Shown one piece after another: positions 34,851 to 37,803 of a stretch of DNA of 40,543 nucleotides. The translations under genes were made by a program, and so were the position numbers. Positions within the stretch are counted from its first letter, which is position 1; each line of letters begins with the position of its first letter. The DNA lies in the IMG/VR virus record IMGVR_UViG_3300032213_001517, positions 1 through 40,543 of that record; one strand, 5' to 3'. Source of the stretch: a virus. The notes under the pieces are model-generated. The model was given only the letters and a program-made list of their open reading frames with translations, was not told the DNA's origin and ran no database searches.

Positions 34851-35593
34851 TTTCCTTCTCCTTGAATAGCGGTTCGCTCCTCGATCATCATTTGCAGGTC
34901 AGCAATAACGTTTGCCGCTTGCACCGCGGTAAGGTCCGCGGATTGCTTTACGTTGTAATGCTCTTTCACGCCAAGCCAGTAAGCCGCATCGACGCCGGCC
35001 TCGCGCCCAAGCCGGGCCATTTCTGCCAAGGCCTTCACGCCGGCCTTTCGTTCCGCGGGTGCTGCCGGTGCTGCCTGAGCTGGTGCAGGTAGCGCCAAGG
35101 GTTCCACCGCCGCCCCGGGAATAGTTTCCACTTCGGATTCGTCAAGCATCCCAAGGCCGCATATTGAAAGCGTTACGCGCCGCTTCGCCTTAGTCTCTGC
35201 CTTCATCAATGCGTTGGCTATTGCGTCCCCCTGAAGGCCCTTTACCGGTACCGCGCCGGTGCTCTCGTCTGTCCTGCCGTCTGGCATGGTGGCACGTGCT
35301 GTCACTACGTGCACGCCGTCGGTGGTTTCTCGGTTGACGATTGCCACCGACACGCGGTGAACGCGCCTTAACTGGTCGGTTGCATCTCGGCGCGCGTACA
35401 ACACCAACTTGCCTGAAAGCCTAAGGTACTGAAAGGGTTGGCTTTCAAGCGTAAGCCCGGTGGCTTCGCATATTCTGCGCACCAGCTCGAGACGCTCTGC
35501 CGGTTGCAGGCGCTCAAGGTTGCCATCCACGATAGCGGTTTCCCATCGTTCCGCGGTGCTTTCCATCGGTACCAATTCACTTGCTGTTGTCAT
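34847..35593 (-). CDS. Probable phage recombination (strand-annealing) protein, 248 aa
   Basis: The ATG at 35593 is preceded by AAGGAGAGG, so I rejected the longer frame to 35635. The N-terminal 165 residues have the layout of a phage annealing protein: ICEATGLTLESQPFQYLRLS, KLVLYARRDATDQLRRVH, a beta pair (VHVVTARATMPDGRTDES), and ALMKAETKAKRRVTLSICGL. A Pro/Ala linker and a helical tail follow. I cannot tell RecT, ERF and Sak types apart by eye. It partners with the SSB-like and RusA genes in recombination. Confidence 0.65.
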   Translation of the reverse strand: MTTASELVPMESTAERWETAIVDGNLERLQPAERLELVRRICEATGLTLESQPFQYLRLSGKLVLYARRDATDQLRRVHRVSVAIVNRETTDGVHVVTARATMPDGRTDESTGAVPVKGLQGDAIANALMKAETKAKRRVTLSICGLGMLDESEVETIPGAAVEPLALPAPAQAAPAAPAERKAGVKALAEMARLGREAGVDAAYWLGVKEHYNVKQSADLTAVQAANVIADLQMMIEERTAIQGEGK

Positions 35594-35783
35594 TGTTCCT
35601 CTCCTTTCGTATTTCTGAACGATCAATCCGAACACTAGGTCCGGCGGTAATGCGCAGGCTCACACGCCCACCCGCCGCCGCTTCCACCATAATCACACAC
35701 TCGTTTTCACCTTCTCCAATCACTAATTCCTCCCCCACCTTGCGGTTTAAATACAAACCGCCAAAACTTGGTCCATACGTCAT
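35577..35783 (-). CDS. CsrA-like RNA-binding protein, 68 aa
   Basis: The ATG at 35783 has GGAGGTGA upstream and overlaps the previous stop (ATGA). After seven extra residues the protein reads GGLYLNRKVGEELVIGEGEN, which lines up with the CsrA start (LILTRRVGE.L.IG). It continues VSLRITAGPSVRIDRSEIRK, matching the CsrA end (V.I.AP..V.V.R.EI). The conserved arginine near the start (NRKVGE) and the one in DRSEI, both used for RNA binding, are present. CsrA binds GGA in RNA leaders, so this protein may control phage or host translation. Confidence 0.8.
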   Translation of the reverse strand: MTYGPSFGGLYLNRKVGEELVIGEGENECVIMVEAAAGGRVSLRITAGPSVRIDRSEIRKERNNDNSK

Positions 35784-36355: not shown

Positions 36356-36544
36356 TCATTCCCTAGTCATGCACTGGTGTAAATCCCAAACGTCGCCAAG
36401 CTCTTCTCGGGAACTGCCGTCGCGCTCCCAAGTCTGGTAAAAACTTTCAATAGCTTGCTCAATTGTCTCGGCGTCCACCCGGCGCGTGCCGTTGTAGCCG
36501 TTTGCCAATACGCTGTAGCCAAGCTGAAAGGTGAGGCGATTCAT
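36356..36544 (-). CDS. Small hypothetical early-region protein, 62 aa
   Basis: The ATG at 36544 follows the conserved leader core ACGGAGAACGG shared with the other small genes of this region. The product begins MNRLTFQLGYSVLANGYNGT and has a helix (AETIEQAIESFYQTWERDG) and an acidic end. It is encoded just downstream of the hammerhead ribozyme, so its mRNA would begin with a 5'-hydroxyl about 40 bases before the start codon after self-cleavage. Family unknown. Confidence 0.6.
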   Translation of the reverse strand: MNRLTFQLGYSVLANGYNGTRRVDAETIEQAIESFYQTWERDGSSREELGDVWDLHQCMTRE

Positions 36545-36578
36545 TTTCCGTTCTCCGTGTTATTCCTTATCCTGTGCG

Positions 36579-36629
36579 ACCCAGACCCCGAAGGGTTTCG
36601 CCCCGGCGCCCCGGGGCTCATCAGTGGGT
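36579..36629 (-). ncRNA. Hammerhead self-cleaving ribozyme (type I)
   Basis: The minus-strand RNA has every conserved part of a hammerhead in order. Stem I strand ACCCA (36629-36625) is followed by core CUGAUGA (36624-36618). Stem II is a perfect 7-bp hairpin with loop GGCG (36617-36600), followed by GAAA (36599-36596). Stem III is CCC-UUCG-GGG. The cleavage triplet is GUC, and the stem I return strand UGGGU (36583-36579) pairs fully with ACCCA. Cleavage is predicted between 36584 and 36583. Stem I is open, so it is type I. It lies in the gap between the 64-aa and 62-aa genes. Confidence 0.88.
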
Positions 36630-36630
36630 T

Positions 36631-36825
36631 TCAACCGCCGTTTGCAATTCGAACAAAATTATATTTCCAGTAAATATCGTTGCGCTTAATGTCGCTTTGG
36701 GTCATGGTGCCCTTACCGCGGCAAGCGTAGCAAATATCTACCTTAACTCCCACTCGGCCATTCTGAACTACCTTAAGATGAAACTGGCCCGAACCGTTGC
36801 ACTTGCCGCATGTGATGTTTGCCAT
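36631..36825 (-). CDS. Small zinc-finger protein, 64 aa
   Basis: The start at 36825 has GGAG upstream. The protein contains two CxxC knuckles, CGKCNGSGQF and CYACRGKG, which resemble the CxxCxGxG repeats of the DnaJ zinc domain. The rest is basic and aromatic (NDIYWKYNFVRI). It is likely a metal-binding protein for protein or nucleic-acid contact. It is driven by promoter P3 and ends just before the hammerhead ribozyme, the first element of the following gap. Confidence 0.7.
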   Translation of the reverse strand: MANITCGKCNGSGQFHLKVVQNGRVGVKVDICYACRGKGTMTQSDIKRNDIYWKYNFVRIANGG

Positions 36826-36878
36826 GAGTCCGTCTCCCGTTTGCGTCCCTTGGAACCATCCCTTGGTTCCATGTTTCT

Positions 36879-36906
36879 ATCTTAATCAGTGTCGCAACCA
36901 TGTCAA
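36879..36906 (-). promoter_or_regulatory. Promoter P3 (TTGACA-16-TAAGAT) with operator-like palindrome
   Basis: On the minus strand, -35 TTGACA (36906-36901), a 16-base spacer and -10 TAAGAT (36884-36879) precede an ATG starting six bases later. The spacer holds GGTTGCGACAC, matching the palindrome TGTYGCRACA of P1 and P2. It drives the 64-aa gene after a leader of about 47 bases. Confidence 0.75.
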
Positions 36907-36908
36907 GA

Positions 36909-36933
36909 GGTTCCGGAAGATTTTTCCGGAACC
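36909..36933 (-). terminator. Stem-loop between the 109-aa gene and promoter P3
   Basis: A perfect 10-bp stem (arm GGTTCCGGAA) with a 5-base loop lies 13 bases after the stop of the 109-aa gene and two bases before the P3 -35 box. It has no U run on the minus strand, so a U-less terminator or processing hairpin is the best reading. The same arrangement occurs before P2. Confidence 0.55.
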
Positions 36934-36946
36934 CCGAAAAGTTTTC

Positions 36947-37276
36947 TTAGTAGGTCTCAATTGTCAGGCCTTGGTCCTTGGCGATTTTCTCCGCCAAGCG
37001 CTGGGCGCTGCGCTCTGAGCGACAGTCGTAAACCTTGCCGGCCCATTCCCCATCAATCATGATGCCCACCGACCAGAACAGGCTTTCATCATCATCGCCC
37101 ATGTCTTGGGCTTCGGTGATCGCAACGTACCGTTGGCTGTTGGCTTGGGGCATTTCATCGACTTCGGTACTCTGATCAATGAAGCCGGTGAACTTTATGA
37201 ACTGCTGATCATCGGAGCGGTGATCGACGTTTCCGTTGTAGTCGGTGTTGACAAAGTTGAAGTAGGTCTGGCTCAT
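36947..37276 (-). CDS. Small early-region protein, 109 aa
   Basis: The ATG at 37276 follows the leader ACGGAGAACGGGAC. A longer frame only covers the promoter. The product is acidic (MSQTYFNFVNTDYNGNVDHR, DMGDDDESLFWSVGIMIDGE) and ends in a basic-then-acidic helix (SAQRLAEKIAKDQGLTIETY). No membrane segment is seen. It is the gene of the second promoter cassette (P2). Function unknown; small phage early proteins often target host functions. Confidence 0.6.
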   Translation of the reverse strand: MSQTYFNFVNTDYNGNVDHRSDDQQFIKFTGFIDQSTEVDEMPQANSQRYVAITEAQDMGDDDESLFWSVGIMIDGEWAGKVYDCRSERSAQRLAEKIAKDQGLTIETY

Positions 37277-37329
37277 GTCCCGTTCTCCGTGTTGGCGTTT
37301 CTGACTGCGTCCTTCGCTGTCATGCCTGT

Positions 37330-37357
37330 ATTCTAATCCATGTTGCGACACTGTCAA
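37330..37357 (-). promoter_or_regulatory. Promoter P2 (TTGACA-16-TAGAAT) with TGTYGCRACA operator
   Basis: The -35 TTGACA (37357-37352) and -10 TAGAAT (37335-37330) are separated by 16 bases. The spacer carries the perfect decamer TGTCGCAACA (37350-37341). Six bases after the -10 comes an ATG at the position expected for the transcript start. Confidence 0.8.
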
Positions 37358-37359
37358 GA

Positions 37360-37385
37360 GGGCCCGGAAGAATTTTTCCGGGCCC
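37360..37385 (-). terminator. Stem-loop between the 103-aa gene and promoter P2
   Basis: The arms GGGCCCGGAA and its complement pair perfectly over 10 bp around a 6-base loop. It follows the stop of the 103-aa gene by 11 bases and ends just before the P2 -35 box. Its inner half matches the hairpin before P3, so the two belong to one repeated unit. Confidence 0.6.
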
Positions 37386-37396
37386 AAGAATTTTTC

Positions 37397-37708
37397 TTAG
37401 AGGCTAAGGTAAAGGCCCGTGTTGCGCTCGATGATTCCAACCAACTGGTCGGCATAAACACCAGATAAAACAACCTTCACGTTTTCGCCCTTAATCGTCA
37501 TTCGGCTGAAAACCATGGTGTACGTATCGTCGGCACTCAAGGTGATCTTTACCGAATTGATGCCGTTCAAGCCGCGGGCTTTGAACTTGAACCAAAGCTG
37601 GTTTGGCTTGCCGTGCCCGATTTGAACCGTTCCGCCAATCATTACCATGGCGCGCACGCCGCCGATTTGAGCGAAGGCTGTCGATTCGATTTGATTCAAG
37701 GTTGCCAT
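37397..37708 (-). CDS. Small early-region protein, 103 aa
   Basis: The ATG at 37708 follows ACGGAGAACGGGACA, the leader shared by the cassettes. An alternative ATG at 37756 is in frame and sits at the predicted transcript start, adding 16 residues. The product is beta-rich (QIGGVRAMVMIGGTVQIGHG, then MTIKGENVKVVLSGVYADQL). No membrane or catalytic motif is visible. It is the first gene of the promoter array, driven by P1. Function unknown. Confidence 0.6.
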   Translation of the reverse strand: MATLNQIESTAFAQIGGVRAMVMIGGTVQIGHGKPNQLWFKFKARGLNGINSVKITLSADDTYTMVFSRMTIKGENVKVVLSGVYADQLVGIIERNTGLYLSL

Positions 37709-37762
37709 TGTCCCGTTCTCCGTGTTCGTTGTCTTGGTCCCGTCCTTCGGTTCCATGCTTAA

Positions 37763-37790
37763 ATTCTAATCACTGTTGCGACGCTGTCAA
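37763..37790 (-). promoter_or_regulatory. Promoter P1 (TTGACA-16-TAGAAT)
   Basis: The minus-strand -35 TTGACA (37790-37785) and -10 TAGAAT (37768-37763) are spaced by 16 bases, with CGTCGCAACA in the spacer. It drives the 103-aa gene. It overlaps the plus-strand promoter of the divergent regulator, so both cannot be fully used at once. Confidence 0.8.
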
Positions 37791-37803
37791 GGCGTGGTAC
37801 AAT
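37776..37803 (+). promoter_or_regulatory. Plus-strand promoter of the divergent regulator (TTGCGA-16-TACAAT)
   Basis: The -35 TTGCGA lies within the P1 operator palindrome, and -10 TACAAT follows after 16 bases. A GGAG site (37819-37822) precedes the ATG at 37832. The overlap with P1 means a protein bound at the palindrome would affect both directions. Confidence 0.65.

Follow-up and report, generated by a model that had tools for sequence, protein, structure and literature searches.

The window, a 40.5-kb IMG/VR virus record, very probably encodes on its minus strand (36579-36629) a cis-acting type I hammerhead ribozyme that includes a short pseudoknot and that would divide a polycistronic early mRNA independently of the identity of the genes on either side. 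The hammerhead assignment draws on sequence, fold, a descriptor search and relatives, whereas the gene-independent divider is proposed because of placement, conservation and gene swapping. The motif, the covariation of the pseudoknot within a subfamily, the conservation, the position and the exchange of neighbours can all be read from the DNA itself.

Type I hammerheads located between the genes of (pro)phages entered the literature in 2011 (Perreault et al., PMC3088659). These prophage hammerheads cleave in vitro and in E. coli, multiple copies flanking phage genes and a pseudoknot have been described, and it was suggested that they cut transcripts into gene-length mRNAs (PMC3088659); the known phage and prophage background is covered in a review (PMC6155905). 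The element described here shares with the published ones the core, the type I topology, a pseudoknot joining loop II to the stem I side, the position between small phage genes and the occurrence of several hammerheads per phage in related loci; new are its own sequence and the lineage of the phage. Gut phages also have self-cleaving ribozymes in their genomes, the theta ribozymes, but these are HDV-like and are linked to tRNAs in the title and abstract of PMC10879173, whereas the window has a hammerhead and no tRNA genes were found in it. For the question of what phages gain from hammerheads, this locus offers a clean case, with an unchanged ribozyme, interchangeable neighbours, one upstream promoter and a defined leader. 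A wider set of phages with the ribozyme on a stop codon adds to its value.

Core, fold and pseudoknot

Read on the minus strand, the stop codon TGA of the upstream gene (36633-36631) is followed by one A and then by the 5' strand of stem I, ACCCA (36629-36625), whose partner is UGGGU (36583-36579). Next come the core strand CUGAUGA (36624-36618), stem II (GCCCCGG and CCGGGGC, 7 bp, closed by a GGCG loop, 36617-36600), the GAAA core strand directly 3' of it, and stem III (ACCC-UUCG-GGGU), after which C17 lies at 36584. Both the CUGANGA and the GAAA strands are thus present in order, three helices meet at the core with the pairs 10.1-11.1, 1.1-2.1 and A15.1-U16.1 formed, and position 17 is an H (C here, C or A in relatives). 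Stem III had been given 3 bp in the original prediction (CCC-UUCG-GGG); it has 4 bp, as the final A of the GAAA strand (A15.1) forms a further pair with the U in the GUC triplet. From the position of this NUH triplet, cleavage is predicted between C17 (36584) and U1.1 (36583), the same site, strand and coordinates as had been proposed before.

The minimum-energy fold of the region is the hammerhead structure. Owing to the high G+C content of the region, its folding stability does not rise above that of shuffled sequences (z = 0.26 and -0.72), and therefore the case for a ribozyme rests on the core and not on energy.

Fast hammerhead cleavage requires a tertiary contact between stems I and II. 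In the window, the last three bases of loop II (GGCG, 36607-36610), i.e. the GCG at 36609-36607, can pair with the CGC directly 3' of stem I (36576-36578), all on the minus strand, giving a possible GCG:CGC pseudoknot. Covariation in a subfamily of 38 hammerheads, defined by a 4-nt loop II starting with G and by CCC in stem I and not selected for the pseudoknot pairing, supports this contact. The last three loop II bases can pair just 3' of stem I in 32 of the 38, against 24.1 ± 1.6 in shuffles, a count that none of 5000 shuffles reached, although these are not strict probabilities because the sequences are mutually related. The pairs themselves vary (GCG:CGC, GCG:UGC, GCA:UGC and GGA:UCC). 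Within a wider set of 233 hammerheads, runs of at least 4 Watson-Crick pairs occurred 60 times compared with 19 expected. A 3-bp pseudoknot is a weak contact, and stem I of the window could instead be lengthened by 3 bp, in competition with it. In three contigs with 69% terminase identity (L017, L357 and L361) the complementary UGC lies several nucleotides farther into the flank. The pseudoknot is of the same kind as that described in PMC3088659. The original prediction had correctly recognised a hammerhead and had overlooked the 3-bp pseudoknot, the general abutment on stop codons and the evolutionary picture.

Conservation amid exchanged neighbours

Contigs with very similar terminase or neighbour genes carry the ribozyme at the same place. 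When the window and four relatives were aligned, 98% of the first 50 ribozyme columns were invariant in these five sequences, and the sole variable position was N7 of CUGANGA, which tolerates any base in the hammerhead core; the flanks, where still alignable, were 24-72% invariant. One close relative (L047) has lost the fifth stem I pair by a U to G change. The three contigs with 69% terminase identity each have at least two hammerheads between small genes; in the same region, their stems II and III differ in sequence and are still paired, i.e. compensated. In one of them, L017, the upstream gene also encodes a CxxCxGxG protein and its stop lies directly before stem I. Among the relatives, four kinds of upstream gene and two kinds of downstream gene surround the same ribozyme, and one gene family is found upstream of it in L012 and downstream of it in L006. 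This constant ribozyme amid swapped genes points to a gene-independent role in RNA processing. The phage of the window probably infects planctomycete bacteria, as its terminase has its best relatives in cellular genomes almost exclusively among Planctomycetota.

The two flanking genes, the ribosome-binding module and P3 lie on the minus strand. As had been noted before, the ribozyme lies between a zinc-finger gene and a gene of 62 aa. The upstream gene (36631-36825) encodes a 64-aa CxxCxGxG zinc-finger protein resembling the DnaJ central domain (PF00684, 26.1 bits, below the cut-off of 32.7), which also matches phrog_6060 'Q-like' at 6e-5. The downstream gene (36356-36544) has no assigned function and follows the predicted cut after a leader of 39 nt, close to the roughly 40 bases first estimated. 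It is preceded by the ribosome-binding module AACACGGAGAACGGAAA (36545-36561), part of repeat family D3 (36541-36561), which also precedes genes of 109 aa and 119 aa, both promoter-led. Going upstream from the ribozyme, the nearest good promoter is P3 (36879-36906), a sigma-70-like candidate (TTGACA-16-TAAGAT) by consensus match. It belongs to three repeated promoter modules at 37790, 37357 and 36906, the last of which is followed by the zinc-finger gene. Before the 62-aa gene, the ribozyme occupies the spot where the promoter-led neighbours have their promoter, and no strong promoter was found between the zinc-finger gene and the operon. The 62-aa gene is succeeded by small genes, by a CsrA-like ORF and by genes for replication.

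Altogether, we propose that the minus-strand early transcript starting at P3 would be cut by the ribozyme. Self-cleavage by hammerheads leaves a 2',3'-cyclic phosphate and a 5'-OH. By this chemistry, the zinc-finger mRNA would end in a 2',3'-cyclic phosphate shortly past its stop codon, and stems II and III would stand at this 3' end as two tight hairpins. The downstream message, carrying the 62-aa gene and probably the replication and recombination genes behind it, would begin with a 5'-OH and the 39-nt leader, which is about equal in length to the promoter-made leaders of neighbouring genes. The ribozyme would then be a divider sited where other genes of the region have a promoter. We infer cutting in vivo, an effect of the end chemistry on mRNA stability or translation, and selection for it.

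Two further observations concern this neighbourhood. The CsrA-like ORF (PF02599, 6.5e-9) is located at 35577-35762 on the minus strand, and the ribosome-binding site of the 62-aa gene (ACGGAGAACGGA) has two ANGGA motifs, ANGGA being the CsrA-binding consensus. The promoter modules (36851-36950, 37300-37400 and 37709-37791) carry inverted repeats immediately before TTGACA (GGGCCCGG..CCGGGCCC, GGTTCCGG..CCGGAACC); such modules may insulate neighbour genes and aid gene swapping.

Stop codons, translation and recombination

Two biased pattern scans of IMG/VR phages yielded at least 230 loci, of which at least 199 contain a full hammerhead, and up to eight hammerheads per locus among the matches listed. 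Of 123 distinct listed matches to the pattern AACCCNCTGANGAG..CGAAAC by itself, 91 turned out to mark a full hammerhead. When stem I was left free in the scan, 74 of 130 listed cases had an ORF of 80 or more codons ending at -8 to +4 of the core on the sense strand, against 2 of 47 on the antisense strand. The stop codon was the UGA inside the core in 16 of the listed cases, some of which may be artefacts of mechanical ORF calling because the core always blocks one reading frame. From the cut to the next start codon, the median distance was 32 nt among the matches listed in these phages. It is conceivable, and we put it forward tentatively, that in many phages hammerheads at stop codons make mRNA 3' and 5' ends without protein, replacing terminators and promoters and easing swaps of small genes, and that in some the UGA of the core ends the upstream gene. 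The text of PMC3088659 contains no statement that we found on stop-codon abutment or gene swapping, and 'stop codon' occurs 0 times in it; we claim no priority for the pattern, as our literature search covered open PMC text only.

Hammerheads were also checked for a general link to CxxCxGxG genes, and none was seen, with 10 loosely matching upstream ORFs for 294 hammerheads among the matches listed. Six loci (L151, L199, L273, L149, L177 and L189) each have between four and eight hammerheads, in gene gaps close to one another, and the six in L189 have a stem I of 3 bp only (CCC/GGG).

The most interesting point raised by the abutment is a possible gating of the cut by translation. During termination the ribosome covers some 12-15 nt of downstream mRNA. 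One stopped at the adjacent UGA would cover stem I together with part of the core and could delay or block folding, which weighs against the plain divider. Cutting would then be held back by ribosomes terminating at the abutting stop, and processing would report translation of the upstream gene. This reading, a refinement of the divider and not its opposite, agrees with the footprint and with the stop lying at most 8 nt from the core or inside it in the majority of those listed phage examples that have an ORF upstream; since tight packing of phage genes alone would put a ribozyme beside a stop codon, we consider it unlikely.

The exchange of neighbours could also be explained if the element were a recombination joint, a short invariant block through which a recombinase swaps small genes, with cleavage secondary. 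Flanking genes do differ among relatives around 50-70 nearly identical nucleotides, and the blast match between the window and L006 begins at the ribozyme edge. However, the promoter and ribosome-binding repeats of the region could serve equally well, N7 is the only variable position within the ribozyme, and in distant relatives the structure persists although the sequence differs, something that recombination would not require. A joint of this kind therefore appears distinctly improbable, and the mRNA divider is the reading that we retain.

Chance matches and the reach of Rfam models

A descriptor combining the core, three stems and H17 had exactly one match in the window. It covers type I only, the type II and III permutations being covered by Rfam. 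Among 7807 dinucleotide-shuffled windows it matched 9 times with stems of 4/4/3 (relaxed) and once with stems of 5/5/4 (strict), so that together with core and fold the type I reading of the original prediction is borne out.

The same prediction had expected a covariance-model match above the Rfam threshold, and here it failed: no match at the gathering cut-off was obtained from Rfam. The best match was RF02275 (Hammerhead_HH9) with 22 bits against a gathering cut-off of 52 (E = 0.0022 on 201 bases, E = 0.07 when searched over 6.5 kb). The element aligns across all 77 positions of this model, but its outer stem I fits poorly, and it is not filed in that family. Such a score is to be expected, because 22 of 23 equally complete strict phage hammerheads from 20 IMG/VR loci were also missed and a single one reached the Rfam hammerhead cut-offs. 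The failure is a sensitivity limit for short phage hammerheads with no bearing on class membership, and these cut-offs conceal most such phage elements.

Searching the region and the ribozyme by blastn against 50,697 phage records gave no relevant match. Our own covariance model R2 matches the window element at 70 bits, which is circular because the element belongs to the training set; a search with R2 of 21 genomes with related terminases (mostly Planctomycetota), run without a positive control, matched none. Stem covariation in alignment A1 was not counted as proof, because its members had been selected for paired stems.

That the element only resembles a hammerhead by accident or after decay, or is a plain hairpin or terminator, would suit the Rfam score below gathering and the ordinary folding energy, but is hardly credible given the shuffles, the conservation with only N7 free, the compensated relatives, the pseudoknot and hairpins followed by no U tract. 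An intrinsic terminator (G+C-rich hairpin plus U tract) was also sought, and no terminator-like site was present on the sense strand after the zinc-finger gene.

Other RNA elements accompany hammerheads in phage contigs. One such contig has a Twister-P5 ribozyme (L304, 1199-1253, minus strand, 48.4 bits) in addition to a hammerhead, and another carries a tRNA gene array (L284, 33-1295) with a hammerhead at 585-621 between tRNAs.
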